This document shows, piece by piece, positions 4,815 through 42,227 of a stretch of 42,691 bases of DNA; the first letter of the stretch is position 1, and the number at the start of each line of letters is the position of its first letter. Under the pieces are notes generated by a model. The model saw only the letters and a program-made list of their open reading frames with translations, was not told the origin of the DNA and did not search any database. A program made the position numbers and the translations under genes. The stretch comes from a virus, in IMG/VR virus record IMGVR_UViG_3300010883_000095, positions 1 to 42,691 of that record, one strand, 5' to 3'.

Positions 4815-4815
4815 T

Positions 4816-20320: not shown

Positions 20321-23300
20321 CTAATACTTACTTCCTCTATTTATACTTGGGGTTGTACCTGGTGATACGTCTAAAGTTGTACTATGTAGCCCGGTATTTA
20401 AAGTATACTGATTTATCCATTCAAGACCTTCTGTCCCAAATTCTTTTAACCCACTCACACATAATAAGTTAGTTGTGCTACCTTGTTTAGTATAAAGTGA
20501 TTCAGCTTTATATAATAATTTATTACTTTTAAATTGGTTTGCTAATAAATTTGTTTTTTCACTTACTAGTGTACTACCGAATAAATTACCATAATTATTT
20601 ATGTTATAACTATTAGCGTACGTTGATACTGGGTTTAGTGTTAAACCACTAAGTATATTGTTATATCGTTTACTACCTGGTGTTGGTAGTGATGCTGGTG
20701 GAAATCCTATGGACGCTCCCATAAATAATGGGGCGGGGTATCCTGTATATCCTGTTGGGGATACCGTAAATGTGGTTGTTAATGCACTAGCTATGGTTAC
20801 CCCTGTCATATCATAACACCTATAAACAAATTTATCTCTATGGAATACGGAATTCTCCACCTTTAAACCACTAGTCCATAATGTAGTAGTTGGGACCATC
20901 TGTTCTATTATCTTTATCCAATAATCACCCATAGACTCCGCATAGTCTAACATTTTTGTATATGTGTATTTATTATTGTCCCCACAATTAGTATATAAGT
21001 AATCTAAGTATAGTTGTTGCAATGTTGGGTACCCACCTGTTTTCCCATCATTAATTGTCATTCTATTTTTAGTATCTATAAAAAATTTCCAAAAATGACT
21101 TAAGAAACTTTTAAAATCATATTTTTTTGCGTTTATTTGTGGGTTGGTAGAGTCCCATCTCCCACCAAATGATGGATATGGTGATGGTAAACTTCCTCCA
21201 CTAAATACACAGTTATTTTGTACTGCTTGTTGCCATACGTCATATGTTAACCCTTGTCCTATATTTAAAGCTAAATCAACATTTTTAACATTTATAACTA
21301 ATTTTTCATTTCTCGTTTGGTAGTACGCGTCCCTATTGTTAAACGAAAAATCTCTAGTTTGTAATCCTGGTTTAAGTAGTGACCAAGATTTCTTATCGTC
21401 AATTGCTCTAGTTAACCCAAAACCAAAAGACATATGTGGAAACCTCCAAAATCTATCTAAATAAGGTGTATTTACATCATTAGAATATTTACCCATGGTC
21501 CAGAACCCACCATAAGTAAATTCACTAAATTTTGTTGCAATATAAGGACTACAACCACTTAATACTGATGTAGAAGCACTACTTTGTCCTGAAATAAAAT
21601 CTGTATTGATAATTACACTTGATTTGTGTTCCTCTGTTCTTTCAAACCACCCCGCTCCTCTTTGGAAGAAATAGTTATTAGTTATTCTTGGTTTTTTCGG
21701 GAACCCATCTTTATCAATAGGATAATCACTTAATGTGAATGGGTGTTCTGTTGTACCTGTTGCGTTATAAAAAGTATTAAATAATGGGGAGTATTTTAGT
21801 GTTTTGTTTGTATAACTACCACCAGATATTACTTGCCATTCATTATGAAATCTACTATTACAACTTAATGAAGTTGTGGTTGTAGAGGAGCTAGTCCCTG
21901 AGGAAGAATTTAGTGTATTGTCGTTAATTGGGTATAAACTACATAGGTTTATCTTAGCGTCTGCTAGTACTACGTACTCGTTAAATTCTACTAAAGCTGG
22001 AGGTGCTCCTAGTAACGACAGTAAAAATTCTATGGACTTTCTAGTACCTTTTGACCTAAATAGGTATGATGTATTCATCAATATTCTTCTATATAGTTCT
22101 ACATCTAATTCTGCTGGTGTTTTACTAACGCTACTTCCTGAAAACAATGGTTTAGTTACACCTAATACACTATCTAAGAAATTTTTATTATCTAGTGTTG
22201 ATGGGGTTGACCACCCTAAGGTACGTGCAAAATTCTTAATTAACTGGTTTGGTATGTCATTCTTACCGTCATACGTAACATTGGTCATATACGCAATTCC
22301 ATCTACAAATGTCTTAATATCATCAAAACTTCTTCCATATATTTGTAGTGTCTTTTCTATTTTTTGGTTTGTATTATCGAATTCTTTAAGGATTGGTGAA
22401 GTTAGGAATCTTGAGATTAGGTTTGTTTTTTCTCCATCTATCTCACTTCCTAGGTCTGATAAGGAAACTATATAATCAGTATAAGCACTTGTAGTGGTAT
22501 CTATATTTATCCTATCCTCTAGTGGCCATGTTTTATTTGTTTTCACATAAAAGCTTTTTCCTTCGTTGGTTTCTCTAACTAATTTAAATGTAGCTGTGTA
22601 TATTGGGGAGCATTCTCTATTTAATAAAAAAGCTTCTATATCTTTTAAGTCGTTAAAAAATTCTTCTGACTTAGTCGTGTTGGGTGTAATGTAGTAAGTA
22701 CTAGTTGTGGTTGTAGTGGCTGTATTTGTAAACCAATTGAATGGGTTTCCTTTTACGGTTAGTTCTATAAATGTTGTATTAATGGTTTGTGGGACTAAAT
22801 TAATTATTTTATAATTTTTTTCACCTAAAGCCCCACTAAAAGTAATAACATAATCTTTAAACTCAGTTGTTAAATTTCTTAATTTATTAATAGAGCCATC
22901 AGAAATCCTAACTACTGTATCTGCTGAATTACCAAACATCTCTAAATTATTTAGTAATTGTTGTGGTGTTAACCCTAATTGTGCTAAAGAACCGTTAGTG
23001 GTAAATTCTATGTTAAATGGGTTGGATAATCGGTTTACATTTACCCTAAATGTAGTTTCATCATTTATATTATTATAACCAATATTATAAGCTGTTGTGT
23101 TACCAGATATATAATTCTCGTCCATACCGTCGGCAAAAATGGCCCCAGGAAAAAAATTTACTATGTTTTCTACCGCAACACTTAATCGTTTGGTGAGTGA
23201 CCCATATAAAACAAAACTACTGAGTTCGTTAGTGTCATTATTTACAAAAATTTCTAAACTGTTCTTAACGAAAGTCTTAGCGGTATTTTCATTGTCTAAG

Positions 23301-23506
23301 TCTAGAGACTCTAGTGTAATTGGGCTAGTAAACACACCTAGGTTATACTCAGTACTAATAGGTCTACTATAGTCTTGAGCTACCGTAAAGGTTCCTGTAG
23401 TCATTAATGATGAACCGTCAGTGTATTGATTACCGACTAGATTGTCACTAAACGTATCACCTCCGTGTCCTGGTGCTGGTGGGTATCTAAATCTATTACT
23501 TGCCAT
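20321..23506 (-). CDS. Baseplate protein with tail gpI-like module
   Basis: This 1061-residue protein contains, at about residues 410-505, the layout of the P2 gpI/T4-wedge type tail proteins. It has an 'IPNQLIKNFARTLGW' helix and, after a linker, DVELYRRILMNTSYLFRSKG followed by TRKSIEFLLSLLG. The 'LYRRIL...R.KGT..SIE..L.LLG' pattern is the conserved core of gpI-like baseplate subunits, which link the baseplate body to tail fibres. Flanking regions are long, beta-rich and not recognised. The protein is much larger than gpI itself, so it is a fusion or an elaborated version. Context between other large tail genes supports a baseplate role. Confidence 0.68.
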   Translation of the reverse strand: MASNRFRYPPAPGHGGDTFSDNLVGNQYTDGSSLMTTGTFTVAQDYSRPISTEYNLGVFTSPITLESLDLDNENTAKTFVKNSLEIFVNNDTNELSSFVLYGSLTKRLSVAVENIVNFFPGAIFADGMDENYISGNTTAYNIGYNNINDETTFRVNVNRLSNPFNIEFTTNGSLAQLGLTPQQLLNNLEMFGNSADTVVRISDGSINKLRNLTTEFKDYVITFSGALGEKNYKIINLVPQTINTTFIELTVKGNPFNWFTNTATTTTTSTYYITPNTTKSEEFFNDLKDIEAFLLNRECSPIYTATFKLVRETNEGKSFYVKTNKTWPLEDRINIDTTTSAYTDYIVSLSDLGSEIDGEKTNLISRFLTSPILKEFDNTNQKIEKTLQIYGRSFDDIKTFVDGIAYMTNVTYDGKNDIPNQLIKNFARTLGWSTPSTLDNKNFLDSVLGVTKPLFSGSSVSKTPAELDVELYRRILMNTSYLFRSKGTRKSIEFLLSLLGAPPALVEFNEYVVLADAKINLCSLYPINDNTLNSSSGTSSSTTTTSLSCNSRFHNEWQVISGGSYTNKTLKYSPLFNTFYNATGTTEHPFTLSDYPIDKDGFPKKPRITNNYFFQRGAGWFERTEEHKSSVIINTDFISGQSSASTSVLSGCSPYIATKFSEFTYGGFWTMGKYSNDVNTPYLDRFWRFPHMSFGFGLTRAIDDKKSWSLLKPGLQTRDFSFNNRDAYYQTRNEKLVINVKNVDLALNIGQGLTYDVWQQAVQNNCVFSGGSLPSPYPSFGGRWDSTNPQINAKKYDFKSFLSHFWKFFIDTKNRMTINDGKTGGYPTLQQLYLDYLYTNCGDNNKYTYTKMLDYAESMGDYWIKIIEQMVPTTTLWTSGLKVENSVFHRDKFVYRCYDMTGVTIASALTTTFTVSPTGYTGYPAPLFMGASIGFPPASLPTPGSKRYNNILSGLTLNPVSTYANSYNINNYGNLFGSTLVSEKTNLLANQFKSNKLLYKAESLYTKQGSTTNLLCVSGLKEFGTEGLEWINQYTLNTGLHSTTLDVSPGTTPSINRGSKY

Positions 23507-23516
23507 TAGTTGTATT

Positions 23517-24431
23517 TTATATTATATTTGTAAATCTTTTACTAAAATCTATATTATTTCCACGGTTTTGTTTTACCTCATATAATTGGTCGTTAAATTG
23601 GTCTCTTACCTCAAATAAATCATATTGTTGATAGATGTTTTGGTTACCACTTAGGTCATATATTGTGTATATTCCGTCATCTATAGATTTAGTTTGGTCC
23701 CCATAAAGTGCAATTGCTAGGGTTTCAAAATCGTGGTCCACCATCTCAATATCTAACACTGTAGGGTTAAAGTATGTATTGGTTATTATAATACTTTGTC
23801 CTGGTACACCTATAAATGGTATAGCGTTAGGGTTGTTAGATGGTGCACTTGTAGGTGTTAAAGTACAGAAAATCTTTGTTGTTGGGGTGTTTGTATAAAC
23901 ATATCTAGGTGATACTTGATTTGGGTTTGTTAAATCCGCAGCTACGGGTTCACAATAAAAATTAGATGTTACTATTCTGAAAAAATTATGCACTTTTCTT
24001 CCACTACCATCAGCGGCTATATATTCAATTCTGTACCCTACTAACGCTTGAGAAGCAAAGGTTGCGTGAAATTGTGCTGGGATACTATTTAAATCTAAAA
24101 CCAACCCTTTCACATTAGGTAGTGACGCTAATATACCACAATCTATTATTGTAGTCCTAATCTCAACCGGTCTAATATATACTGTATATATTCCTGTGTT
24201 TGCGAAAATATTAGATGGTAATTTTAAATCATATAACCCACCTAAAACTTCACTAGGACCCCCACCTGTCGCTAAATTATGAAAATGGGGGGTAAGGACC
24301 GAAGTTGCGTTAAGTTGTGTTATACTAAAGACATTTGTGGAGTCTCTATTTGGGGTGTAGTGTACTATGACTTCTGCGTCTGTTGGTAAAACATCTGCTG
24401 GTCTTTTTATTCCGTATGCTCCTAATGCCAT
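23517..24431 (-). CDS. Virion-associated protein of unknown function
   Basis: No family is recognised. The 304-residue protein lacks membrane segments and enzyme motifs. It looks like two or three beta domains: an N-terminal one (VIVHYTPNRDSTNVFSIT), a middle part with GIYTVYIRPVEIRTTIIDCG and GYRIEYIAADGSGRKVHNFF, and a C-terminal helical/acidic tail (YDLFEVRDQFNDQLYEVKQN). The tail probably pairs with a neighbour. It lies 10 bases from the gpI-like gene and 3 bases from the next small gene, so a baseplate accessory role is likely by position only. Confidence 0.5.
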   Translation of the reverse strand: MALGAYGIKRPADVLPTDAEVIVHYTPNRDSTNVFSITQLNATSVLTPHFHNLATGGGPSEVLGGLYDLKLPSNIFANTGIYTVYIRPVEIRTTIIDCGILASLPNVKGLVLDLNSIPAQFHATFASQALVGYRIEYIAADGSGRKVHNFFRIVTSNFYCEPVAADLTNPNQVSPRYVYTNTPTTKIFCTLTPTSAPSNNPNAIPFIGVPGQSIIITNTYFNPTVLDIEMVDHDFETLAIALYGDQTKSIDDGIYTIYDLSGNQNIYQQYDLFEVRDQFNDQLYEVKQNRGNNIDFSKRFTNII

Positions 24432-24434
24432 TTT

Positions 24435-24668
24435 TTATGCTTGTTTATCTATCTTATAATACCCATGACCGTGTAACTCTAATTCACCTAAATTAGGTGT
24501 TTGGCCTAGTCTTTGTGGTTTTTCAAAAACTGTAACTTTACCTCTTTCAATAAATATATTGGACCTAGTCTCTGGCCTTTCACATACATTCATCAAAACT
24601 TCCTCTTTTGTGAGTGGTGGTATACACCCAGGTGATTTATAACCTATTTTATCAAAACTTGTTCCCAT
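24435..24668 (-). CDS. Small virion-associated protein of unknown function
   Basis: This 77-residue protein has no recognised domain. It is Pro/Gly/Glu-rich with two cysteines (Cys15 and Cys28) and a polar C-terminus (ELELHGHGYYKIDKQA). Its gene sits between the giant Cys-rich gene and the 304-aa gene, 3 bases from the latter. The 53-base leader carries a 14-base sequence also found before the gp25-like gene. Confidence 0.5.
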   Translation of the reverse strand: MGTSFDKIGYKSPGCIPPLTKEEVLMNVCERPETRSNIFIERGKVTVFEKPQRLGQTPNLGELELHGHGYYKIDKQA

Positions 24669-24721: not shown

Positions 24722-27700
24722 TCAGTTCATACATTTACAATATTCCCAATTCCAATACCATCCACGTCCACAATCTTCAGTTTGTATACACGGTGCTGCT
24801 GAATCCATTGGGCCTATTATATTCGGTAACTCACAGTCACATTTGGTGTAGTTAAATGTCTCACCGGGTGGACAACCTTGTGGTGGAGGAACACAGTTAC
24901 AACAATTTTTTGTGTCACTAGCACACCCACCATAAGTTGCATACCCAGAAGTTGCGTTCGCGTCCCAAATACAACTACATGGGACTTGGGAGGCTAGTAT
25001 AGCATTTTTATCTACTGATTGATTTGAGTCACTAGTAAGAGAAGGTTGGTTACCAACAACACAACGAAAGAATCCTTTTGGTGGTGCTACACAATTTGAG
25101 GATAGGTGACAGTCAGTTTGACTTGTAAATTGTCCACCGGCCATAATTACACATGTTGGGGGGAGAGTAGAATAGTTACATCCCCACATTGGTTGGCCGG
25201 TATTGGTACAAGGAACAATTCCTGTGTCAGTACAGCTCATCCACCCATAATAATTACCATACAAGTCTGGACCTAATCCCCAATATTGTCCACCATATAG
25301 TGAACATGGTTGCAACCCAGAAGATGGGTCATTAGTCCATGCTCCGTTCTCTCCTGGTGAGGTTTGATTTGGTGAACCTACACAACAATAACAACATCCA
25401 TTATTTGGGTCTACAACACACATACCAACACCGTAGTGATAGTTCCATGCCCACGGTTTGAATTGTGGGCTTATTTGTGTATAATTTCCTGACGCGTCCC
25501 ACCAACCCATATACGGTAGTAGGTGAGTTACACAATCATCTTGACATACATTGTATGGTTCCTGTTCACAATCTGAGGGTGTGTTATCTACATTAATATT
25601 ACAAGACTCCCAATGTGCTCCATTTGGGAGTTGTACATTTAGATGTTCTGGTGGGAAGTATCCAGCATTACATAGTGTTGCACTAAGAATACTTTGTGGT
25701 TTTTTAAAGGTTTCTGGTTCAGGATTAGTTAGACTCTGAATAATTGGTGGTTTACATTTACATTCTGACCAACTCCATGACCATCCTGCTGGACACATAG
25801 TTTGTACACATTCTTCTACACAACAATAACAACATTCTAAATCTTTACATATACATGTTTCATAATGAACGGTCCAGTCGTGTGCTACCCCAGCACTATC
25901 AGTATTTATACTTAAAAAATAATCATGGATTGTTGTGTAATCATGTGGGTTACCACCATTACCAGCTCCTGTTTGTCCCATAGACCAACCATTCCACGGT
26001 ACCCACCACACCGCAGGGTAAACAACTGCATTATTAAGGTGTCCCACTAAGTCACTCCAACCGTATGCTTGCATACTTGCTAGAGTACCAACATATAGTG
26101 GGTCACCTGGAGTTACTAATGGTCCGGAATCTATGGTAACATAGTCAACATAATGAAGACCCAACCCATTAGGTCCCTTACAAGTATTACCCCATGCTGT
26201 CATACCTTCAAATTTATATTGTGCAAACGCTGCTCCCTGCCATGCAGGTTGTGATGGTAATGAAAATATTACTTCAACTATATTATTAGGCATACTATTC
26301 CATATATTCTGTGGGAATGGTGGGTTAGTTATAAGTATTTTATCACCGCAATTTGTATCAAACGTTGTTGGTGGGATGGATATACATTGGTTTAGTTGGT
26401 AATTTAATGCGGCGTCCCATACTCCTACATACTGTACTGGCCCCGTTAGTGATGATGCTAGTGTTATACCACAATCTTCACACCCTGCTGGGTCAATAAA
26501 ATCACATGGAGCAGTATTATTAGCGAGAGCTGTAGTACAGTCAGTGAATGCTACGGGACCTGTAAAAAATCCTGTTAGTGGGAACGGGTCATAACACCCT
26601 AGAACTTGGTCACAATCATATGTTTTTAGGGGAGAATTCCCACAACAATTATTTACGTCAGTTAAACAGTTTGACATATTTAAGTAACAATTAGGTCCTG
26701 GAGCTGTACATAATAGGTTAAGGTTACAATTACATATTACATTATTACCACCGGGAGGCCCAATTATCACCTTCTTCTCACAACTATAGTACTTAGTTTG
26801 AGCTGTATAACAACAAGTAAGTGGGTCATTTTCACAGTCTGGTAGTGTAGCGTATCCAGTTACCGCGAGAGGGTCCCACTGACAACCACAGTCTGGGTTA
26901 CAAATGTAGAAACCTGTTGGTTGTTTAAAACAACATTTTCCCACAGGGCCTGGGTCACTTTGACAATCTATCATACTACTATATCCCACAGCCGCGGTTC
27001 CTGAATACGTACAATAACATGGGTTAGGAAATGGAACTTGCACACACACATAATACCCCATACCACTAGTGGTCGCTGAACAACAATTTTGTGGGGGAAT
27101 CATTTGTCCAGCTAGTATACAGTCATTATGAGTAGGATAAGGACCTTTAGGGTCTTGTATACAGTCACAACGTTTTGTAATAGGGTCCCGCTTACAATCC
27201 CATCTAATTTCAGGGTCTGGTTCTTCACCACAACAATTTGTAGTATCTGCAGTACATAATATATCGGTAAGATATCCTATCCCTGGTAAATTACCAACTG
27301 TATCTTCAACACATAAACATGGTGGGTGACAACATTTTACGGCACCAATTCTATCACACGAATCCGGGCCACCAGGACATGGAAACTGTCCGTAATTTAA
27401 CTCCTGATAAATAACGTGATTTAGACTAGATAGTCCAACTAGGTATCCATTTTCTACACCTGGACCTGGTGGAAGACCACTAACATAACTTGCGTTAACC
27501 CCAGCTGCTATAGCTCCATTTATATAGTCAATCCAACTAGTAAATGGTGTTGGTCCACCATTAACCCCATTTATGGTTAGGTTACTTATTGACTCAATTG
27601 TTTTCATCTCACGTTGTCCAGTACCATCACACCCACTACAACACCCCGGGACGTTTTGAAAAGTTTGTGGGCAACTGTTGTTTCCAACCCCATACTTATA

Positions 27701-30700
27701 ATCAGAAAATACTGCATTAACACCATAAGTTAACACTAAAGCTTGTATAGCTGTTTCATTATTTATCCAACAAGGATACCCAAATATAGATGACCAATTA
27801 TTAACATTATCAAGACCAGGCCCAGAACCTGTGTAACTGGAAGCCTGTATTGCACCATTAGCCCAAGTAAAGCTATCTGTAAACCCAATCATATTTTGTT
27901 TATTTGTTATAGAAAATTCTGTTTTTTGTGTACAAAAATTATCATACGGTAAAGTAACATCTTGAATACATTTCCATTCGTCTCTTGGGTCTATATAACA
28001 GCAGTTGTTGTTTGTTGTATCGTTTTGACAATCCCCTATATTTGCCCACCCACTAGTTGCTAATGGGTCATAGTTACAGAAACAGTTTTGACCTGCTGGT
28101 TGTTCACACACCCAAAAACCTGTAGGTGGGATATAACAACAACTGTTTACATTATTTTCACACAGACCTAGTGACGTATAACCTGCGATTGCTAGTGGGT
28201 CAAATGTGCAGAAACATGTTGGTGAATTACTGTCATCACATACCCAAAACCCACCACTTTGAATAATACAATTATCGTCACAAGGAACCCAAACTAATGT
28301 ACCTGTATTTGGGATTGGCATTCCTGCTGGAGGTCCTAGGAATGTTGGTTGGTTTCCTGTTACGTTACCTAAATATATGGTATAGTAATAATAAGGGTCT
28401 ATATCCCAATATACCCCAGTACCACTATAAACATTAACATAACAACAAGTTTGTAAATCGTAAGTAAACGTAACCACATCTCCTGGGCTATACCCTTGTT
28501 GATTAACCAGTGAGACACTACTAGGTACCCATGGTTCGGCACCAACACTCATTGGGTTTATATTTTGTGTGGCGAGAGCCCAACTTGTACCATTCCAAAC
28601 CTGGAAACTTACACTTACATTAGTTACACACTCATAACATGTACAACAATACTCATCATCAGCAAAAAAGATTAGTGGTGGTACAGACGCTAAACAGGTA
28701 CTTAAGTCTGTATAAGTGTTACATGTTAATGGTATAACCGAATTAACAAAATTACAAGCACATGTACTAAAACCACCTGGTTCACATGGACCACAAATAA
28801 AATTACATACTTCTAGACAATCATTTGAATTGAAGTATGGCCCTGAAGCGTATGTTGCTGGTGGTGATGTTTGGTTGTAACTACTACACCCGTTAACTGC
28901 ATCACAATACCATACAACAACAGTAGCTGCACTACAAGGATACCAACCGTAGAATGTAGTTGTATTACTTATACAATCAAATACATTAACTGCGGTAGGT
29001 GATAAATTATTACCTGCTGTTGTAGCACTACACGAAACTTGGTTCCAAGCTAGATTGTCACAGACACAACTACCAGCTGGACAAACATCACAACACCACC
29101 TACAACTATTTTCACAAGCTACCTGGGTTGGGAATCCTACTGCACCTGATGAGAAATTTGCGGAAGGTGGTCCTCCTATTCCCCATGCCTGTGTTTGGTA
29201 TATAAAAGTCTGTGAGGCCATAAATGTGTCTGTCACACAAGGTGAGTCTAAAGCCCCAGTATATAATCCAGCAGCAACCCCTGCTTCGTCACAGAACCAT
29301 GTAGATGCTGTCACACCTGAACTACAAAAACAATCATTAGTGTTTTGCCAACATTGATATGCTGAATTGTATGTGTTTGGTCCGACTGGTATTAATGCAT
29401 TAAATTGACATTGTTGCCATCCGTTTGGGTCACATTCCCACGTACACCATTCTTCACAATCAGCAAGACTAGTAAATGGTCCAGGGTATAATGGGTCACC
29501 TGGTGGTATAGGGAAACAACCCCCAGGGTTACTTGGGTTGGTAGAGCAATTTTGTAAACTATCACAATACCATGTCATTCCTGATGGACAACAATCCAAA
29601 GTTGGGAATAGGTTCATACAATCAGTATATGAAGCAAATGGGAATAATGGGTTAAATATTCCTGCTGGTACTGGTGGGTAGGTTGGGTATGGTGGTGCGA
29701 TAGTATTTACATTGGTGTTGTTTAAAAAATCTTGTTGTACGACGCATCCTGTCTCATCTATGGTAAGGGGGTCATTATCCAAATCACCACAATAACAACT
29801 TGCCATACACTCCGACTCACAAGTACTAGACGTATAACAATTTTGTGCTGTTTGTACAGCTAAACTAGCTGGAGCAATACATGGTATACCACTTACAATA
29901 AGTGAATTCTCACACCCATCCACAGTACATTCATATGTGGACCCACTAACACTACCAAGACATGTTTGACAACCTAATGGGGGTACTCCTGGTGTTTTAA
30001 GACATTTTTCCCAACAATTTGGTGTACCGTTAGGTGCAAATGGGTCTCCTCCAGGAATACCAGTGTTTGTTGGGTCATTACAATCATAAAAACCAAAATT
30101 AAAAGTACATGTGCATATGTAACAACATAGTGGGTCTGAAGGGTCTGCCCAAGATACTATATCGTCTTGTTGGTAATTGGTAAACATACTGTCCCAACTA
30201 CCCATATCATTAAAATTACTGGTAATACCAGAGCAAGCACACTCACAACCTGGTTCATCATCACATGTACCATATGGATTGCTTAACGTACAATCTACCA
30301 TAGTACAGTATGGTATACCTGGATTTGGTATCATAGGATTATAGGTATAGCATGTGCCGACCATAGCCCCAAATTGGTCATACATACATGGATAATTACC
30401 CAATGGTGGTACTTGGTTTGTTGGTGTTGGTCCTGGGTTTATTCTTTGGTCGTCTTCACAATTAACCACACAACATGTAGTAGCTGTACAACATTCCTCA
30501 AGAGTATCATAGATACCTCCAGGACTTGGGAACCATCCTTGGGAATTTTGCCAGAAAGTATCAGCTGACATACACATCCCTATACTAACTAAAGTACCAC
30601 TACCGTCGTCTTCCAACCAACAATCCCATCCTCCATCACAAGGACACTCCAAGTCACAGTCAGCTTCTTCTAAGTAAGTGCCTAGTGCTGGGTTCGCTCC

Positions 30701-33622
30701 ATATATACCCAAAGGATTTGGAGCTCCAGATAATGTAGGGCAGCACTCATGAAATTTGCATGGACATCCTGGTTCGGTTTGGTCACAGTACCAACAACCA
30801 TTACACTCAGTACAACCAGAAAGGCAGGCCATTATAGTAGTGTAATTACCACAACCAAAACCATTATAACACGGTTCACATGGTGTGGTTCCTGGTAATG
30901 GTGGAATTACTGTAATAGGAAGAGTATATGGTATATAAGGGTTTACACAGTTATAAGCACATACAGCAGTATATGGAGCTGTTAATGGTATTCCATAAGA
31001 CCAAACACCAGTTGAAGCACTGTATTCGCACTCAGATAGAGTCAGACTTTGCCCTGGTGTTAATTGACATCCTTCGTCACATGTCCAGAAATACCCCATT
31101 GTATCACAACAAGCAAATTCACAAGGAATGGAACTATTAAAGTATGGTGATACCCATAAATCATGATTATTAGCAATCCATGTTGGTACATCTGGTAATG
31201 GTGATGGTGGTAATGAACTATATATATTGGTCATTATACTAGTATAACTCCCTGGGTCACTTTGTGATATGCCGGCAGCCCAATCATATGCACATGATAT
31301 CACTGAACAACAAGGCCCTCCTGTAGGTGTAGTACATGACCACGCATCTGGGTCACACTGTACCGTACAACCTGTCTGTGAATCAAATAACACACCGTTT
31401 CCTATAGGACCTAAAGTAAAATAAAGTGGGTCTGTGTAGGTTAATTCAGTACACCCACTACAACCACTTAAACAATACCAAGCGGTATCTGCTGAACATT
31501 CACCAGTATTAAAAGAATCTATACATCCTTGGTTACTACCATAAAATGTAAAACTGTTAGGTGTCTGTCCGGAAATCATTTCACATATTAGTGGGCCAGG
31601 ATTTCCTAAGTCTGTAGGACATATCCAACTTACACAACCTATATAATCCCAACTAGATGAATTTGTTAAGGCGGTAGGTGGTGGTGCTGGAGCTACCATA
31701 TCTACGAGAGCTTGAAAACAGTCTCCATTTGGTCCTTCAACAAATTGTCCAATGTAATAGTTATTTCCTGGTATATAAATTCCACCATTCATATTTTGCG
31801 GTCCTGCTGAGGTCGTAAATTGTATTGGTGTTGTAGGATTGCCCGGCTGTCCGCCTAGGGACATATCATTACATGGTGTTTGAGTACCTGGTGGACACGC
31901 TACACAATCTGGTGAACACGCTTCCCAAATATGTGTAGAAGTTATAATTCCAGTGTTAGGGTCAATATCTTGATAAACTGCGGATGAAAGCATTAAAGCT
32001 GGTGGTGTTCCTGCCCATGGGTCTGGGGTTGTACTTGTTTGGTCTATGGAGTGTACCGCCATAAAACAACAACATGTGTTATATGTTTCGTCATATATAA
32101 TATCACCTACGGCATAATCCACAAATTGACTCCATAGCCCTTGATTTGTATTAAAAGCTATTGGGGTTGGCATAAACGTTACCCTATCCACATATTCATC
32201 CTTTGTTTCACACCAAACACAGTCTTCGTCCGGGCATGGGGCACATTCAGCACCACCAAACATATTAGCGTTAATACCACAACTAGTAGCTACAAAAATA
32301 GTAATCCCATTAGTAAAATCGTAAAACTCTATTGGTGTGTTGTTAAGTCCTGTAGATGTAACAGTATAACCTGTATACGTAGGTGTCGCAGCAAATATTT
32401 GTCCCTGCATACCTTGTTGTATCGTACCAGTTATTGGGTCCTCAACATCACCACCTATAGGTACCCACACACCTAACACGAAACCAGCTGCTAAATCTGG
32501 GTTTGTAATAACTGAACTATATGTTTGAAAGGTTCCTAGTATACTTTCTGATACACCACTAAATTCAAAACAGGTGGTAGGTGAGTTTGCACTATACGCG
32601 TTAATATCTATACCTGAATCTAATGGCCCCCAATCTTGTAGACCAGCAGACGTTGTATACATTAAATTCCCCAGTGGGTCAAATACTTGAACTGGTGCTG
32701 GTGGGTATGCTACCATTAAAGAAGCGTAAGATAAAGATGGGGTAGTTATAACTTTAGTGGTTTTCATCTTTCCCCAAGGAGTGTCTTGTGTAAGAATAAT
32801 CTTTCTCTGTATCGGTGTAGAAGGTGGGAAAGTATAGTTACCGGTTAGATTAGGGAATTGTAATGTTTCACAACCACCAGCACCAAAACATATCGGGTCC
32901 AAACAATCACACCCCATCCAACTTATTGTAAAAGGTGAGTCTTGAAATGTCTTATAGTAACCAAAATCAGTAGTGTTAGTTATTCGTATATCCAACCCAG
33001 TAGATGTCATAGAGGAAAATACAAAATTATTAAAAATGTCTTTTTGTTCTACATTACCATCCCACATAGAATAGTGACCTATATCATTAAAGTCTTGAGA
33101 AAGCATAATTGTTACTTGATTTACATTCTCATCTAAATAATTAACACAATTACATGGTGGGGCCATATTAGCTGTTAAATTAATAGCTACTTGAGTATGT
33201 AAAGGGAACCTTATATCCGAACCTGTTATTTGGTATATGTCAATTATTTCATTATAACTTCCAGTTGTCACTGTAGAGGCTGAAGTGGCTTTTAACCCCA
33301 TAAACATCATATATAGGTGACCGTCTAAACTTATACATTCTGTAAACCCTACTGTTGTTGGACTTACGTAGATTGTATCCCACAAAATAATACAAGGATT
33401 TGTGATTGAGCAATCCATCAGTTCTTGTGGGAAAGTACTCATATCCCCACTTAAAGCTTGGTCCACCATACTATAGGTAGAATTATACATAGTCATCCCT
33501 GAACAGTCATAACTAGTGTTTATAGGCCAGTAATTAGTTCCTCCACTACACGGAATACTCCCGTATGTTGCTGTTAGTCCGGATGATGGCGGTCTCTTTA
33601 TTCTTATTTTTTGTATTTCCAT
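24722..33622 (-). CDS. Giant cysteine-rich repeat protein with CBM5/12-like modules
   Basis: This 2966-residue single frame is the longest gene in the window. It is built from short Cys modules of the type '(F/Y/W)-x-C...C-x-C...GY-x-S/T...C...CC', for example near residues 1789, 1839, 2190, 2237 and 2849 (GFWVCDDSNSPTCFC, GFYICNPDCGCQWDP). Earlier ones have the form 'WYCD...C...F-x-S...C...C'. Between them lie segments resembling carbohydrate-binding CBM5/12 modules, with an aromatic start, 'Y-x-x-G/D-x-I/V', 'CCY-x-C' and a later Trp: about residues 492-545, 609-664, 1139-1171, 2391-2440 and 2702-2767. No signal peptide, membrane helix or enzyme motif was seen. A disulfide- or metal-rich surface fibre that binds host glycans is the likely role. 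The frame is intact throughout. Confidence 0.72.
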   Translation of the reverse strand: MEIQKIRIKRPPSSGLTATYGSIPCSGGTNYWPINTSYDCSGMTMYNSTYSMVDQALSGDMSTFPQELMDCSITNPCIILWDTIYVSPTTVGFTECISLDGHLYMMFMGLKATSASTVTTGSYNEIIDIYQITGSDIRFPLHTQVAINLTANMAPPCNCVNYLDENVNQVTIMLSQDFNDIGHYSMWDGNVEQKDIFNNFVFSSMTSTGLDIRITNTTDFGYYKTFQDSPFTISWMGCDCLDPICFGAGGCETLQFPNLTGNYTFPPSTPIQRKIILTQDTPWGKMKTTKVITTPSLSYASLMVAYPPAPVQVFDPLGNLMYTTSAGLQDWGPLDSGIDINAYSANSPTTCFEFSGVSESILGTFQTYSSVITNPDLAAGFVLGVWVPIGGDVEDPITGTIQQGMQGQIFAATPTYTGYTVTSTGLNNTPIEFYDFTNGITIFVATSCGINANMFGGAECAPCPDEDCVWCETKDEYVDRVTFMPTPIAFNTNQGLWSQFVDYAVGDIIYDETYNTCCCFMAVHSIDQTSTTPDPWAGTPPALMLSSAVYQDIDPNTGIITSTHIWEACSPDCVACPPGTQTPCNDMSLGGQPGNPTTPIQFTTSAGPQNMNGGIYIPGNNYYIGQFVEGPNGDCFQALVDMVAPAPPPTALTNSSSWDYIGCVSWICPTDLGNPGPLICEMISGQTPNSFTFYGSNQGCIDSFNTGECSADTAWYCLSGCSGCTELTYTDPLYFTLGPIGNGVLFDSQTGCTVQCDPDAWSCTTPTGGPCCSVISCAYDWAAGISQSDPGSYTSIMTNIYSSLPPSPLPDVPTWIANNHDLWVSPYFNSSIPCEFACCDTMGYFWTCDEGCQLTPGQSLTLSECEYSASTGVWSYGIPLTAPYTAVCAYNCVNPYIPYTLPITVIPPLPGTTPCEPCYNGFGCGNYTTIMACLSGCTECNGCWYCDQTEPGCPCKFHECCPTLSGAPNPLGIYGANPALGTYLEEADCDLECPCDGGWDCWLEDDGSGTLVSIGMCMSADTFWQNSQGWFPSPGGIYDTLEECCTATTCCVVNCEDDQRINPGPTPTNQVPPLGNYPCMYDQFGAMVGTCYTYNPMIPNPGIPYCTMVDCTLSNPYGTCDDEPGCECACSGITSNFNDMGSWDSMFTNYQQDDIVSWADPSDPLCCYICTCTFNFGFYDCNDPTNTGIPGGDPFAPNGTPNCWEKCLKTPGVPPLGCQTCLGSVSGSTYECTVDGCENSLIVSGIPCIAPASLAVQTAQNCYTSSTCESECMASCYCGDLDNDPLTIDETGCVVQQDFLNNTNVNTIAPPYPTYPPVPAGIFNPLFPFASYTDCMNLFPTLDCCPSGMTWYCDSLQNCSTNPSNPGGCFPIPPGDPLYPGPFTSLADCEEWCTWECDPNGWQQCQFNALIPVGPNTYNSAYQCWQNTNDCFCSSGVTASTWFCDEAGVAAGLYTGALDSPCVTDTFMASQTFIYQTQAWGIGGPPSANFSSGAVGFPTQVACENSCRWCCDVCPAGSCVCDNLAWNQVSCSATTAGNNLSPTAVNVFDCISNTTTFYGWYPCSAATVVVWYCDAVNGCSSYNQTSPPATYASGPYFNSNDCLEVCNFICGPCEPGGFSTCACNFVNSVIPLTCNTYTDLSTCLASVPPLIFFADDEYCCTCYECVTNVSVSFQVWNGTSWALATQNINPMSVGAEPWVPSSVSLVNQQGYSPGDVVTFTYDLQTCCYVNVYSGTGVYWDIDPYYYYTIYLGNVTGNQPTFLGPPAGMPIPNTGTLVWVPCDDNCIIQSGGFWVCDDSNSPTCFCTFDPLAIAGYTSLGLCENNVNSCCYIPPTGFWVCEQPAGQNCFCNYDPLATSGWANIGDCQNDTTNNNCCYIDPRDEWKCIQDVTLPYDNFCTQKTEFSITNKQNMIGFTDSFTWANGAIQASSYTGSGPGLDNVNNWSSIFGYPCWINNETAIQALVLTYGVNAVFSDYKYGVGNNSCPQTFQNVPGCCSGCDGTGQREMKTIESISNLTINGVNGGPTPFTSWIDYINGAIAAGVNASYVSGLPPGPGVENGYLVGLSSLNHVIYQELNYGQFPCPGGPDSCDRIGAVKCCHPPCLCVEDTVGNLPGIGYLTDILCTADTTNCCGEEPDPEIRWDCKRDPITKRCDCIQDPKGPYPTHNDCILAGQMIPPQNCCSATTSGMGYYVCVQVPFPNPCYCTYSGTAAVGYSSMIDCQSDPGPVGKCCFKQPTGFYICNPDCGCQWDPLAVTGYATLPDCENDPLTCCYTAQTKYYSCEKKVIIGPPGGNNVICNCNLNLLCTAPGPNCYLNMSNCLTDVNNCCGNSPLKTYDCDQVLGCYDPFPLTGFFTGPVAFTDCTTALANNTAPCDFIDPAGCEDCGITLASSLTGPVQYVGVWDAALNYQLNQCISIPPTTFDTNCGDKILITNPPFPQNIWNSMPNNIVEVIFSLPSQPAWQGAAFAQYKFEGMTAWGNTCKGPNGLGLHYVDYVTIDSGPLVTPGDPLYVGTLASMQAYGWSDLVGHLNNAVVYPAVWWVPWNGWSMGQTGAGNGGNPHDYTTIHDYFLSINTDSAGVAHDWTVHYETCICKDLECCYCCVEECVQTMCPAGWSWSWSECKCKPPIIQSLTNPEPETFKKPQSILSATLCNAGYFPPEHLNVQLPNGAHWESCNINVDNTPSDCEQEPYNVCQDDCVTHLLPYMGWWDASGNYTQISPQFKPWAWNYHYGVGMCVVDPNNGCCYCCVGSPNQTSPGENGAWTNDPSSGLQPCSLYGGQYWGLGPDLYGNYYGWMSCTDTGIVPCTNTGQPMWGCNYSTLPPTCVIMAGGQFTSQTDCHLSSNCVAPPKGFFRCVVGNQPSLTSDSNQSVDKNAILASQVPCSCIWDANATSGYATYGGCASDTKNCCNCVPPPQGCPPGETFNYTKCDCELPNIIGPMDSAAPCIQTEDCGRGWYWNWEYCKCMN

Positions 33623-33625
33623 ATG

Positions 33626-34513
33626 TTACGTTGCTATATATTCATAAAACATTATTTCGTCTCCAACCATGGTCCCTGTTTGGTTTGATACAACCCCTGA
33701 CATAATATTTAAACTACTAAATGGGTGTACCGTGTATCTATATTTTGGTGGTGCGTTACCACTATCTATTTTAAGTATGACTTGGTAGAAGAACCAATCC
33801 TCATACGAATAAGGTCCTGGAACAATGGCACCTGTCCCGGGATTGATTGGGGCTTGTGTTACCATTCTAATTACTTTTCCGTCTTTTGCGTTATAAAATT
33901 TACAACTCATATAGAATGAAGTACCAGTAAATAAATCTCTATTTTTTAACCATTGTATATAATAATTTTCATTTTTTCCTTGTTCCGGGGATAAGATTGC
34001 GTCGGGTACGTATACACCGTACATAGGCATTGGTGTTGGGATTGGTGGTAGGTTAGCCATTTGTGACCAGTATTCTACTGGGTCTTCGGAGAATGATATT
34101 AGTTTTTGTTCTTTCCTACAATTATTCGCTGGCATCACACTAGTAAACATTAGTTTTTGTTCTGATTTAACTGGTGAGTCATAAAAGTCAAATTTAAAAA
34201 AACTATTTTTAAATGATTGTCTAGTTCTTGCTAATTCATAATCTTTATACCCTAAAATATTAAAGTCGTCATAATAACTACCCGCTGAAAAAAATAAGAA
34301 CTTATAGTGTATTTTATAGTCGTCATATGGGTTATAGTGTGTGTACCTAGTTGTCTCATAATCTTGTATAAAATTTATATTATCTTGTAATTCTACTTCT
34401 TCCCAAGTTTCTATTAATTGTTCACGACCAATTTCATCAAAACTTTGACCTAATGGTATAGTTACTTGCTTCTCATCAAGTGAAACTTTCATATGTATTT
34501 TATTCGCAGTCAT
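33626..34513 (-). CDS. Baseplate-region protein of unknown function
   Basis: No family is recognised. The 295-residue protein is acidic and aromatic-rich (many Tyr and Phe, e.g. YKIHYKFLFFSAGSYYDDF), with no membrane helices. The start region (HMKVSLDEKQVTIPLGQSFD) and the C-terminal half (EDWFFYQVILKIDSG) look like beta domains. Its start lies 14 bases inside the end of the 605-aa gene, so the two are translationally coupled, and it precedes the giant Cys-rich gene by 3 bases. It is probably a structural partner of one of these, inferred from position. Confidence 0.5.
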   Translation of the reverse strand: MTANKIHMKVSLDEKQVTIPLGQSFDEIGREQLIETWEEVELQDNINFIQDYETTRYTHYNPYDDYKIHYKFLFFSAGSYYDDFNILGYKDYELARTRQSFKNSFFKFDFYDSPVKSEQKLMFTSVMPANNCRKEQKLISFSEDPVEYWSQMANLPPIPTPMPMYGVYVPDAILSPEQGKNENYYIQWLKNRDLFTGTSFYMSCKFYNAKDGKVIRMVTQAPINPGTGAIVPGPYSYEDWFFYQVILKIDSGNAPPKYRYTVHPFSSLNIMSGVVSNQTGTMVGDEIMFYEYIAT

Positions 34514-36317
34514 CGATAAATGTTGATATTACGTTTATGGTCTGAGCCGTGTAATTATGTAGAATTGGTTCTACTATAAATTCTAAATTATGGTGGGGGT
34601 AATGGGCATTATTTAGGTAAGGATAGCTCACACCGTTTGTATTATCATCGTAAAATTCTATTGGTAGTATAGGTCTCCATCTAAAGGTGTTATCAGCTAA
34701 AGAATAAACACTATACTGTGGTGCTGTAAATAATGCATCGTTAGTTCTTATGGACCTGGATAATTTTCTTATAGGAATCCTATTGTGTGGTCTATATTTG
34801 TATATGGATTTTACAAACTCTGGACCAGCCGGTCCACTACCGGTTCCCACTTCATACATAACATCTTTATTAAACTTTAAGGAATACCCTAATTCAGAAA
34901 TTATTCGTTCTTCAAGTTCTAACCCATTATATTCTACAAAAGCTCCTCTATATGTACTACCACTATTAGGTAGTGGTGAAACCCCACTGTTATTACTTTG
35001 TATGACATTCGAAGGGTTTGTATCGTTATCAACAAATGGGTCTATCATACCAATTTTTCTAAAATTCCAGTCCCAACCATATCCTGCTGGTGAACCAGCT
35101 GCTTGATAATTCCACATTAAGTTTCTGTTGGTTGGAAAAACAGTTAGGTATAAATCTGTTAGTGGTCGGTTTAAATTATCATAATAACCGTCCACATCAA
35201 TGTCTAGGGTACACACCCACGTATACGATTTATATTCCTCTAAAATAGTTGTTGTACCGGGAAAGTTTAGTGGTGTTTTTTTGGACTTAAAAACTCTTCC
35301 TTTTTTGTTGTACACACCTACTTCAAATCCTGTTCTATCTAGAGTGTAGTCGTTTGGTGTTGTTATTAACTTATGGGTGTGGGAATAATAATTTGACTTG
35401 CTTTCTATAGTATTGTTTGGGTTTATAATTCTTTTTAGTGTCCCTACTGGATTTGTAACTATAGAAGTTGCGTCTAAACCAACTGTATTAACATTTATAA
35501 CGTATTCATCAGTATTTGCAAACTCATTACCTAATGAATCTACTTTAAATAAATTTTGTTGTGTTGTAAAAGTTCCTCCTGGTGTTGTATACGTTAAACT
35601 AATATCGGTCATTAGATTAGCCGTTGAAGGAGGGCCTCCTACAGTAGGTGTTGATTGTAATTCAATATATTCTCCTGGTGATACCCCGTGTGGTACTGGT
35701 GTTGTAAACCTCATTGTTTCTCTACCAGAGTTATCTATAACAACCTCAACTGTAAATGGTATCCCATCAGAAGCAATAAAATCCATATATGAAGGTGTAT
35801 CATACTCCGTATAAAACCTCATTGGTTCGTCAGGGTTTGAGTCACTAATGTAGGATATATATACTACCCAGTTATCGGTATAAGCGGACAACACACTATA
35901 TGTTGACGCTGCAGCACTATCCCCGTAGATTTTTGTTGGTATAAAATCAAATGCCATAGCTGTTGGCATGCCCACACATGGTGGTCCTGCTGATGGGTTT
36001 GATGGGTATGCTACTGGGTCTGGACATCCAAGGTGGGCGGGAGTAAAATACATATTACCGAGAAAATTACTATTCGAAGTTTCTCCAGATATAATATTAT
36101 TATATAGTATATCTAATTTTCCGTACATTCTGTAAGTGGTACAATAATCCCTTTCAAAATCAAATTGGTCACTTAGATTTAACACCAAATTTCTATCTCC
36201 TTGGATTAGTGTTCTTTCGTCGGATGTTAATAGTGGTTTTAAAGTAATATCTTTATTAACACTTCCAGCGAATTTGGAGACACCCCTTACTATTCTTATG
36301 TTTTTTTCATTACTCAT
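34500..36317 (-). CDS. Baseplate-region structural protein of unknown function
   Basis: This 605-residue protein has no recognised domain. It is beta-rich, with a basic start (MSNEKNIRIVRGVSKFAGSV), a middle part with HGVSPGEYIELQS resembling strands in other tail proteins, and a C-terminal region with RIPIRKLSRSIRTND. There are few cysteines and no membrane helices. Its start overlaps the stop of the 1161-aa gene by one base (TAATG), so coupling is likely. By order after gp25 and gp6 it lies where T4 has gp8, but no sequence evidence supports homology. Confidence 0.5.
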   Translation of the reverse strand: MSNEKNIRIVRGVSKFAGSVNKDITLKPLLTSDERTLIQGDRNLVLNLSDQFDFERDYCTTYRMYGKLDILYNNIISGETSNSNFLGNMYFTPAHLGCPDPVAYPSNPSAGPPCVGMPTAMAFDFIPTKIYGDSAAASTYSVLSAYTDNWVVYISYISDSNPDEPMRFYTEYDTPSYMDFIASDGIPFTVEVVIDNSGRETMRFTTPVPHGVSPGEYIELQSTPTVGGPPSTANLMTDISLTYTTPGGTFTTQQNLFKVDSLGNEFANTDEYVINVNTVGLDATSIVTNPVGTLKRIINPNNTIESKSNYYSHTHKLITTPNDYTLDRTGFEVGVYNKKGRVFKSKKTPLNFPGTTTILEEYKSYTWVCTLDIDVDGYYDNLNRPLTDLYLTVFPTNRNLMWNYQAAGSPAGYGWDWNFRKIGMIDPFVDNDTNPSNVIQSNNSGVSPLPNSGSTYRGAFVEYNGLELEERIISELGYSLKFNKDVMYEVGTGSGPAGPEFVKSIYKYRPHNRIPIRKLSRSIRTNDALFTAPQYSVYSLADNTFRWRPILPIEFYDDNTNGVSYPYLNNAHYPHHNLEFIVEPILHNYTAQTINVISTFIDDCE

Positions 36318-39300
36318 TATACTACGGTATCTGCTAACTCTTCATCTACATATAACCTTAAAAACATATTATATGCGGTTCTACCAGGTCTTAACCCAAA
36401 GTAATAAAATAACGGTTGAGAGAATACTGTGGTGCTTAGGCTATTTTGATTAAGTACTGGGTAATTTCCTGGATGTACTAATCCACTACCCGGAGATGAG
36501 GTTAGTGAGTTACCCATATCATTTTGGAATTCCCCAGCCATTACTAGTGAGTTGGCAAATAGTCCGTAAATTGGTCCACCCCCGCCATCCGAGTCAACTA
36601 TCCAACCTGAACCACTTCCTAATGCGGTTTGATATGTACCTAGTGTAAATCCCCAATCATTATACTCAGAGCCCCATGCTGTACCTGGAGCCCCTTGGAC
36701 ATTCCATAAATAATAAGGAACTTCTTGAGTAGAAGCTGATAAATCTAAAGTTACACAATCTACCAATTCAAATCCTGTCATCATAGTATGTGTTACTGAA
36801 GTAAATATAAATGGTGTCCACCCTATATGGTATGTGCTGTCTATTGCATTTACTGCATTAGGAACAATAATTCCTGTATCGTTTTGGTCATTGGTTGGTG
36901 GGTAGGTTAATCCAGATGTGACTACTGTAGTGGTTGACGCAACACAATCACATTGGCTCATACCAAGAGTCGCTTCATACCCATAAACACCCAACATACA
37001 ATTTTGCATCAATGCTTGTGCAACGTCACCACCTATTTCTTTATGTGGTCTAGGAAACATGGTAGAGATAACAGAATCTTCTCTATCCATTTTCATATTA
37101 TATATATCTGAAACTAACTCAGTTATGTCTTGGAATGTGGTACTTCCTAGTTGGTCTGTAATTGCACATTCTTCCGCAAATTTTGGGTCCAGACAAACTT
37201 GTTGTACACACTGATTTCTTGACCCTAAGTCTGTTATTGTTGTAGGCCAATAGATATGTTTATCCATATCTCCCTCAGCGTGGTCTGGGTTTCCACTTCC
37301 ACCAGAACCACCCCAAAAATTACTATCCCACCAAGGTGCATAAACTCCTTCATCATCACCAATAAAAACACCAGTATTAGCTGTGACTCTATCAAAGGGT
37401 GTACATCTATAATAAAACACATTTTCTGTTGGGTGTAGGTATACGGTTTTTTTACAATATTGTGAGTCTGTTACGTAGTCATCATTTAGTACATTATATC
37501 TTAATTTTGCGTTAAATTGGAATTGGTATAGGAATCCTGTAACCCAATTATTTTCCCACACATAATTCATTAGTCCGTTACATAACGCTTGTGACATTTT
37601 TTCTCGTCTGCCCCATTCATGAAATATTACCATTGACAAGTTTTGGACAATACATGTTGGATTAATACATATAACTTTTACGTAACAACCACCACCTGCA
37701 GCATCATCTGCATTTCCTGCAACACCATCATCATTAAACCCATATGAGTCATCACAACAAATTTCTACATCGTCTGTGTCCCCACAACATATATGACCAT
37801 TCCAAATCCCCAGGCCTAACCAAGTACCACCACCATTACAGTTAGGTATACAACTACACGGATTACCATTATATCCATTTAAACTAGAATCTGCAGACAT
37901 TCCGTCACATGGCCAATTAGTTGCCAATGTCAGTAAATCACCACTTGCTGTACTTCTACAATTACATTTTTCACACTCAGGGTATTTGGTTTGTTTTAGA
38001 TTAAATAGTACAAACCCTAATGGTAAGCCTAGAATTTCACAGTTAGCTCCACAACCATTACAAGATACACAAAACTGTCCACACCCCAACCCTATTATAG
38101 TGGGTAATAATAGGTTATTAGAAATCAACCAATTAGGCAAGGAGTTTAGAATAGTATTAATCAGACATAATAATACACAAATCAGCATAATGACGAATAT
38201 AACCGCTACCATTATCATACCAACTATAAAAGCTAGTGCGGCTACTAGCATTGATAGGAACCCGTAGATGAAACTAAGAAAACTAATGAACATACTATAA
38301 AGAATAATCCAAAAATTATTATTTCTTATCGCACTATTAATTGGGAAAAACATTGCGGTCGTGGAACATTGTTGTGCTTGTTCTGGTAATATTTCTTTTA
38401 TACCTATAAACTGTCTTCTACCCCAATGTTTAACATGGTCGTGATGTTGAGCTGGTGAATAAACCCTATTAAAGGTCATGTCATAAAAGAAATCTTGTGC
38501 TCCAGGTATTAAATTAATTTGTGCATATGGATGATAATCATGATATTCTATGGAAAATGTATAACTCTGCATTTCTACCCCATTAAACGAACCAGTATTA
38601 CTAGTATTAAATTCTCTAATATTAGGGACTAGATAGGAACCAATTCTTCTTAGTCTTGCACTCCCCCCAGCTTGTTCTGGTCTAATCCTAAATCTACATC
38701 TTGCTCTTGTAGGTACCCCAACAGAAGGACTTGGTGATGTTACTAGATTACCAAATTCATCTGTAATTAAATAATCTAAGTTCATAGGGATGTGTGTTAA
38801 AAAAGCTCCAAACTGGTCTATAACTCTTCCACCATCTTGTAAGTAATATCGTTCTAATACGGGAACTGTACCCCCAACGCCACCATAGGCTAGTGCGTCT
38901 TCTTTAAAGAATGGTGTGTATCTTACACAATCTATTATTCCTGGGATGGATATAAGACTACATAACTCACCCATATGTTTTTTAGGTCTACAATTAAGAT
39001 TAACAGAATCTTTATCAGTATCAGTAGCTGTACTCCCCATAAAAACTGCGGTAGGTTCTAATTTAAAACCAGAATTTGCTAAATCAAAATCTACTCTAGT
39101 TATAGCTCCTTGACATATGTCTTCGTCACCCCAAAATGGTTTTATGTCTATAGATTTCTGTTGGTTTAGTATTTGTGGTAGTGCATCTATTGCGTCATCA
39201 TCCTTGAATCTCGGTCCGTCAAAGTCTGATTCCGGATATCCTTTTTGTTTAAAATCTTCCGGTAACATAGAGAAACACCCCATATCACTTAAATCCACAT

Positions 39301-41759: not shown

Positions 41760-42227
41760 TTATAAAGTTATTATAACAAAGTCTCTTGTTTCAAATAAAT
41801 TATCACCTGCCGAATAGTCTATACGTACTCTTATTGTGTAATCTTTTTGTTTATCACTTACAAAACTAAATGTATTATCATCTAAAGATGGGTCTTTAGA
41901 TTGTAAGTTGTGTTTTTCTTCTTCTTTTACATCCTCATAAGTCTTAACCTCTACCTTACTTATTCTTAGATTAGGGATAAATTCTTTAACAGCTTCCCTT
42001 ATCTCTCGGTCTATAGCAATTTTAGTGGTTTGGTCCATTTGGTCAAATATATATTTGACTAGATTTGTCCCAAAATTCGGTAAAAAATACCTAGAACCTT
42101 TAACTGTTAATATTAAATGCACTAGGTTGCTACGTGCTTCACTAGTAATAGTACTATTTAACCCAAGAAAAAAACCTTCTTGACTATCTATAAATGGAAA
42201 TGTTATACCGTATCTTTGAGTGGGCAT
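41760..42227 (-). CDS. Baseplate wedge protein, gp25/GPW-like
   Basis: This 155-residue protein matches the gp25/GPW lysozyme-like wedge family. It has GITFPF near the start, a helix ITSEARSNLVHLILTVKG, and the hallmark GSRYFLPNFGTNLVKYIFD at residues 44-62 (Gly44, Arg46, Pro50, Gly53). An amphipathic helix with IREAVKEFIPNLRISKVEV follows. gp25 sits at the core of the wedge and primes sheath assembly. An acidic insert (VKEEEKHNLQSKDPSLDDN) lies before the last strands. It leads the baseplate gene set in this direction. The leader is A/T-rich without a ribosome-binding consensus and carries the repeated TATTTATTATAAAA element. Confidence 0.9.
   Translation of the reverse strand: MPTQRYGITFPFIDSQEGFFLGLNSTITSEARSNLVHLILTVKGSRYFLPNFGTNLVKYIFDQMDQTTKIAIDREIREAVKEFIPNLRISKVEVKTYEDVKEEEKHNLQSKDPSLDDNTFSFVSDKQKDYTIRVRIDYSAGDNLFETRDFVIITL

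Follow-up and report, generated by a model that had tools for sequence, protein, structure and literature searches.

What a 2966-residue protein with 242 cysteines (8.2%) might be doing among the baseplate genes of a phage is the question raised by the stretch of viral DNA analyzed here (IMG/VR record IMGVR_UViG_3300010883_000095, 42,691 nucleotides, hereafter the window). An initial annotation, made from the sequence alone, had described a single intact, Cys-rich frame lying between baseplate genes, and both points were borne out: the ORF is uninterrupted and is encoded on the minus strand, from 33622 to 24722, as are all 24 main genes of the window. In order of transcription, it is preceded by genes for gp25, gp6/Baseplate_J, and proteins of 1161, 605, and 295 aa, and followed by a 77-aa ORF and genes for proteins of 304 aa and 1061 aa, the last of these being homologous to a large protein at the wedge position of Flavobacterium phage immuto (Table 1).

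Table 1. Coordinates in the window of the giant protein, its modules, and the neighboring genes, with the evidence for each.
Feature	Position	Strand	Evidence or remark
Giant Cys-rich protein, 2966 aa, 242 Cys	24722..33622	-	ORF; full-length relatives in IMG/VR
PKD-like core, residues 169-441	32300..33118	-	HMM E 1.2e-19; blastp E 8e-16 to L053; Foldseek PKD1 (4l9d, TMt 0.60), low-confidence model
CBM5/12-like module a, residues 490-585	31868..32155	-	Iterated HMM, module alignment, profile comparison
CBM5/12-like module b, residues 615-668	31619..31780	-	Iterated HMM, module alignment
CBM5/12-like module c, residues 1142-1221	29960..30199	-	Iterated HMM, module alignment
CBM5/12-like module d, residues 1704-1787	28262..28513	-	Iterated HMM, module alignment
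CBM5/12-like module e, residues 2723-2798	25229..25456	-	Iterated HMM, module alignment
Six-Cys repeat 1, residues 1791-1829	28136..28252	-	HMM; AlphaFold model
Six-Cys repeat 2, residues 1835-1875	27998..28120	-	HMM; AlphaFold model
Six-Cys repeat 3, residues 2139-2181	27080..27208	-	HMM
Six-Cys repeat 4, residues 2189-2231	26930..27058	-	HMM
Six-Cys repeat 5, residues 2237-2271	26810..26914	-	HMM
Six-Cys repeat 6, residues 2277-2327	26642..26794	-	HMM
Six-Cys repeat 7, residues 2850-2908	24899..25075	-	HMM
YxC..C..GxYxSLxxCxxxC module, residues 1346-1397	29432..29587	-	HMM
YxC..C..GxYxSLxxCxxxC module, residues 1566-1610	28793..28927	-	HMM
YxC..C..GxYxSLxxCxxxC module, residues 2808-2848	25079..25201	-	HMM
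YxC..C..GxYxSLxxCxxxC module, C-terminus of neighboring 1251-aa protein	16719..16820	-	HMM; in all relatives checked
gp25-like baseplate wedge protein	41760..42227	-	Pfam 1.3e-11
gp6/Baseplate_J, 613 aa	39917..41758	-	Pfam 3.7e-8
1161-aa conserved protein, 41 Cys, hydrophobic membrane-like stretch	36317..39802	-	Used as parity control
605-aa conserved baseplate-cluster protein	34500..36317	-	Kept in relatives
295-aa conserved baseplate-cluster protein	33626..34513	-	Kept in relatives
77-aa anchor ORF	24435..24668	-	HMM E 3.5e-28; homologue of C-terminal ~60 aa of short slot proteins; overlooked in the initial annotation
304-aa protein, syntenic marker just downstream of slot	23517..24431	-	Synteny
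1061-aa wedge-position baseplate protein	20321..23506	-	Homologous to immuto 1265 aa, Mel-JY01 1336 aa

The cluster is T4-like in that gp25, gp6, and wedge homologues are present in order, and a T4-like terminase is found in a relative (G001) whose 155.9-kb contig also encodes a sheath-type protein, HSP70, DnaJ, and glutaredoxin. The nearest isolates by gp6 and terminase, at ~26-28% identity, include Flavobacterium phage immuto and also Microcystis phage Mel-JY01; both share the gp25, gp6, wedge order, but HMM searches found in them no homologue of the core or anchor described below, and they have no Cys-rich giant. Two small G001 proteins begin with Bacteroidota-style signal sequences (e.g., LLPLFTFAQT), and from these, together with the presence of immuto among the nearest isolates, we infer that the host is likely Flavobacteriia-like and marine. 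The phage group is probably one of T4-like phages of marine Bacteroidota.

About 25 relatives of the giant, full-length or partial, were found in IMG/VR, with the same gene order and 35-75% identity, and since this layout recurs in many independent contigs, the giant is not an assembly artefact. Searches of the full-length protein against Pfam (E up to 10) gave 0 matches, and those against PHROGs and the PDB nothing significant; likewise, neither the giant nor the short proteins that occupy its position in other phages matched any of 50,697 phage records by tblastn. Pfam and PHROGs gave no match to the structural domain of Tal or to the belt of Dit. Two scans of 84,980 genomes retrieved no cellular relatives, these scans using short patterns that distant relatives would escape. 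Within the chain, the motif [YFW]x[STN][LMIVQ]xxC occurs 14 times, versus 1.5 +/- 1.2 in the shuffled protein, and CC (26 versus 19 expected) and CxC (28 versus 20 expected) are mildly enriched.

Iterated HMMs resolved five modules resembling carbohydrate-binding modules of family 5/12 (CBM5/12) in the giant, and 5-7 in close homologues. An alignment of 30 such modules gives the consensus GxWxxxxxYxxGDxVxxxxDxxxCCYxxV...P...WxxC, in which the modules keep the aromatic and GD residues that characterize CBM5/12 (W, Y, GD, V, Y/F, and the final W). When the module profile was compared to CBM5/12 with hhalign, scores of 23.5 and 21.6 were obtained, versus shuffles with a mean of ~7-9, 8.5 for the higher score, and a maximum of 15.8. 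The five PDB profile matches of the module (E 0.44-1.7) are without exception CBM5/12-bearing deacetylases, which the ChiA1 chitin-binding domain matches as well. The best Pfam family of the modules is CBM_5_12, with E 0.22 in the giant clade and 19.2 bits (E 0.0013) in an intermediate form, L058; no module reaches the Pfam gathering cut-off for this family (PF02839; 26.2 bits). An AlphaFold model of residues 1-700 has a pLDDT of 45 overall and of about 55-70, still low confidence, in the CBM-like stretches. The modules share with CBM5/12 (PF02839; ChiA1, 1ED7) a W-x5-Y-x2-GD-x-V ... Y/F ... W pattern, length, and order, but score below the Pfam cut-off and have additional cysteines, namely a CC pair that precedes the core aromatic and a C..C that follows the last W. 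We consider the sequence evidence for kinship with CBM5/12 to be weak but specific.

The same searches resolved seven six-Cys repeats of ~40 aa, [YW]xC..CxC..GxYxSLxxC..CC, and four related YxC..C..GxYxSLxxCxxxC modules. A two-repeat AlphaFold model of the six-Cys repeat is confident (pLDDT 83) and folds as a beta hairpin followed by a short helix (beta-beta-alpha), and a Foldseek structure search of this model against the PDB and viral models returned no match, Kunitz/BPTI included. The model is that of a candidate new small disulfide-rich repeat fold, or family. A Kunitz/BPTI assignment of the YxSLxxC modules was considered and set aside, as 24 modules were scanned with no Kunitz match and their profile has no PDB relative. 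The initial annotation had counted dozens of short Cys modules and at least five CBM-like segments; its CBM count agrees with ours, whereas the number of strictly defined Cys modules was somewhat overstated. It had also let its reading depend on the repeats folding as domains and matching CBM5/12 profiles, and here the outcome is divided, with no full-length match in Pfam and every module below the Pfam cut-off, and with the profile comparison well above its controls and the six-Cys model confident.

Cysteine is by far the best kept residue of the giant. Between homologues that are ~37% identical, Cys identity is 0.84-0.89, with Trp next at 0.44-0.54, and a relative that is 75% identical overall (L002) keeps every cysteine of the giant (fraction 1.0). 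Up to residue 1650, nine of ten homologues have 130 cysteines and one has 128. In seven complete homologues held out from the analysis, the counts over the first ~1650 residues are 138, 126, 130, 126, 126, 136, and 130, all even, and given the kinship among the homologues these 17 even counts represent fewer than 17 independent events. At most anchors as far as residue ~1729, the ten homologues agree in the parity of the cumulative Cys number along the alignment, and net differences settle to multiples of 2, as where a 4-Cys loop (238-251) is present or absent as a block. Relative parity is even at 0.90 of positions, versus 0.52 +/- 0.045 in the null (maximum 0.67 of 5000). In the same alignment, nine other residues gave 0.44-0.54, and the cysteines of neighboring proteins gave 0.50 (1161 aa) and 0.70 (1251 aa; p 0.10).

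We would like to note that the parity statistic is inflated by close pairs of misaligned cysteines, while counts at an anchor are independent of local alignment, and that the result covers residues 1 to ~1730: whole-chain totals are odd in several relatives, and the C-terminal third, which is outside the result, may hold unpaired cysteines or be misaligned. No significance was reached when parity was tested on segments cut at arbitrary points, because the cuts fall inside pairs, and single Cys steps were both even and odd because the two cysteines of a pair can be gained at separate places; cumulative parity replaced both of these tests and was then checked on the held-out sequences. Cys partners of identical pattern within 40 columns are mildly more frequent than expected (31 versus 21.6 +/- 3.6). 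Over residues 1 to ~1730, cysteines are gained and lost in pairs, with an even number per closed unit, as in disulfide-bonded extracellular proteins. That they are both the best kept residue and gained or lost in pairs points to disulfides rather than metal, and the chain appears to be held together by ~120 disulfide bonds.

Using the wedge protein as a marker, we fetched 80 loci and compared the slot occupied by the giant, defined by its two flanking genes, the 295-aa-like and the 304-aa-like one. The slot protein has 303-490 aa and 0-0.7% Cys in one large clade, 348-359 aa and 0-0.9% Cys in another, 1139-1156 aa and 4.4-4.6% Cys in an intermediate form, and 2440-2966 aa and 7.4-8.9% Cys in the giant clade of the window; elsewhere the slot is split into two ORFs of 986 and 225 aa (4.6% Cys) or of ~1020 and ~1070 aa (6% Cys). 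Residues ~169-441 of the giant are shown by HMM and blastp to be homologous to the core of the Cys-free slot proteins of ~350 aa (300-490 aa). Homologues of this core carry a DWGDG motif and match Pfam PKD/PKD_4 below the cut-off (E 0.0024-0.16), and the Foldseek resemblance to PKD1 domains was obtained with a low-confidence model of the core. The 77-aa ORF, with the motif IFIERGK..VFE..QRLG...NLGELELHG.GYYKI, is likewise shown by HMM to correspond to the C-terminal anchor that the slot protein had ancestrally and that has become a gene in its own right: the anchor is fused to the slot protein in the short and 1.1-kaa forms, and is encoded separately, by a gene of ~73-77 aa, in all loci of the giant clade that extend this far (E ~1e-26 to 1e-29). 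The initial annotation had suggested a new type of adhesion fibre or tail decoration; the giant is better described as the vastly enlarged form of a protein that is conserved in the baseplate cluster, a link supported by synteny and HMMs.

Whether the slot protein grew or shrank was weighed against the wedge tree, in which the giant clade has a support of 100 and the series is unrooted. In intermediate lineages (L048, L052, L057, L058, and L060), the same slot carries GCxDPxAxNYxPxAxxDDGSC repeats. A relationship between these and the six-Cys repeat was considered and rejected (hhalign 8.2 versus 7.4 +/- 1.5 for shuffles), and the presence of a different Cys repeat in the intermediates suggests that the slot was inflated more than once. 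The short Cys-free proteins could instead be reduced descendants of a giant ancestor, for which the unrooted tree and the lack of a slot homologue in the nearest isolates leave room. We judge this quite unlikely, as the unrelated repeats of the intermediates and the fused anchor of the short and 1.1-kaa forms both fit parallel growth better than repeated loss, and growth would be the simpler reading of these sequences.

The adhesion-type role within a baseplate cluster foreseen in the initial annotation is supported, as is the distant but specific resemblance to CBM5/12. In our assessment of the sequence evidence, this T4-like phage probably has in the giant an enlarged, "evolved" adhesin that is associated with the baseplate, locked by disulfides, and glycan-binding. 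The initial annotation had left metal binding and oxidation after lysis as options. A metallothionein- or zinc-finger-like protein holding Zn, Fe, or Cu by thiolates in the cytoplasm would suit the very high Cys content of a product made in a reducing compartment, but we find this class highly improbable and rejected it for the giant, because CxxC is not enriched (22 versus 20 expected in the shuffled protein), His is rare (21 in 2966 aa), and Cys changes are paired, with parity kept in 17 complete sequences. The dominance of Cys pairing in conservation, the sub-threshold CBM matches, and the beta-beta-alpha repeats with no known binding relative would all be compatible with structural armour: a shell, fibre, or whisker hardened by disulfides would shield the baseplate or tail or make it stiffer, and the CBM-like modules would be compact building blocks that bind no glycan. 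Nevertheless, this reading is unlikely, as the CBM5/12 aromatic and GD positions are kept across 30 modules and other lineages too carry CBM5/12-like modules in the same slot. It is very unlikely, in turn, that the giant is a non-virion protein released at lysis (a public good, decoy, or surface-binding product) and encoded in the tail cluster by chance; its enormous size would allow this, as would its being known here from sequence, but its core and anchor are homologous to a protein at the same baseplate-cluster place in many T4-like phages, and no export signal is apparent by eye.

If the giant is such a disulfide-locked adhesin, the core and the anchor ORF would hold it at the baseplate, and it would be translated and assembled in the reducing cytoplasm. 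Once the cell lyses, each chain would be locked by oxygen through as many as ~120 disulfides into a rigid arm or apron that resists proteases. Before the tail contracts, the CBM-like modules of this structure would bind a polysaccharide on the surface of the host, or of particles, which would act as the primary or a secondary receptor. Oxidation after lysis is the best available idea of how the disulfides may form; a search for a phage-encoded sulfhydryl oxidase of the Erv/VKOR type found none, in a scan whose Erv control matched nowhere. A bolder version is offered tentatively, as a conjecture that may well fail: a virion appendage of ~3000 residues and ~120 disulfides would be built reduced and locked after lysis by seawater oxygen, as the maturation of a glycan-binding baseplate device, and related phages would have inflated the same slot independently with unrelated Cys-rich repeats. 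If confirmed, the giant would show that disulfide formation on a large scale can be put off by a phage until its host has lysed, and would provide a new fold for small disulfide-rich repeats as well as a stepwise record of the path from baseplate-cluster protein to giant adhesin. The giant may be a device for gripping host cells that is hardened to an unusual degree, and since short, intermediate, and giant forms exist, the way in which phages evolve new structures for host binding can be tested directly.

Among secreted eukaryotic and bacterial surface proteins, multidomain adhesins rich in disulfides are typical, and no virion protein of a tailed phage is known to us in which the paired cysteines come anywhere near 242; a literature search found no described counterpart of the giant. 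By sequence, the known kind to which it would belong is a baseplate protein enlarged with carbohydrate-binding modules, and its disulfide density, new repeat family, and traceable growth path would be the unusual features. Each part of the proposed design has a precedent. In the Oenococcus phages OE33PA and Vinitor162, a CBM-rich long Tal and an evolved Dit have been described (PMC8540738). Similar to the giant, these are long chains (up to ~2000 residues) in which a core baseplate protein is enlarged with several CBMs and for which ancillary host binding has been proposed. In contrast, the core of the giant is a PKD-like protein of a T4-like cluster, neither Dit nor Tal, its modules are CBM5/12-like and theirs CBM4/15/22, and the giant has disulfide-rich repeats and an anchor encoded by a gene of its own. 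In AlgoCIS, the phage-tail-like machine found in the marine Bacteroidota species Algoriphagus machipongonensis, two potential CBMs are part of a baseplate cage, and firing is blocked when a baseplate disulfide is removed (PMC13314943). By description, the cage protein Alg11 resembles what is proposed for the giant in belonging to a tail-like machine of marine Bacteroidota with potential CBMs near the baseplate, as possible binders of a secondary receptor, and with a baseplate disulfide. The AlgoCIS cage, however, is formed by Alg11's own domains and has a single key disulfide, whereas the phage has an ordinary gp6 (613 aa), and a separate gene encodes its modules and ~120 potential disulfides.

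Several further observations were made in the window and its relatives. G001 encodes a very long sheath-type protein of 1144 aa with a Cys-containing insert (CNDAWYYALFDYSGDTTCCSG; G001 66422-69856, L029 9422-12856), as well as a glutaredoxin (4729-5142; Pfam 3.4e-10), which is not specific to giants, as it was also found in short-slot relatives. HSP70 is present in three phages with Cys-rich slots (G001, G008, and G010) and absent from four of four large contigs with short Cys-poor slots (G011-G014, 211-335 kb), a small sample in which the contigs may be incomplete. In the 1161-aa protein, the region of residues ~495-620 has a long hydrophobic, membrane-like stretch with a cluster of cysteines behind it; this protein does not keep Cys parity. 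In some genomes, an ORF of 190-225 aa, possibly an inserted mobile gene, lies between the giant gene and the anchor ORF (L016 17960-18532; L046, L049, and L051 near 8150-8850).

Homology among the baseplate-cluster proteins themselves yielded a sole strong pair, the tail proteins encoded at 7978-9861 and 9905-10684, which weaker hints link to the protein at 10684-13077. The smaller tail protein (9905-10684, minus strand) has a Dockerin/EF-hand-like Ca-binding pair at residues ~157-230 (Pfam Dockerin_1 1.5e-6), which also occurs in G001, and dockerin-like segments are found inside the L058 slot protein. At 354-1468 (minus strand), the window carries an adjacent cytidylyltransferase (4.1e-18) and pfkB kinase (9e-21), which resemble a split HldE/RfaE pair for ADP-heptose synthesis.
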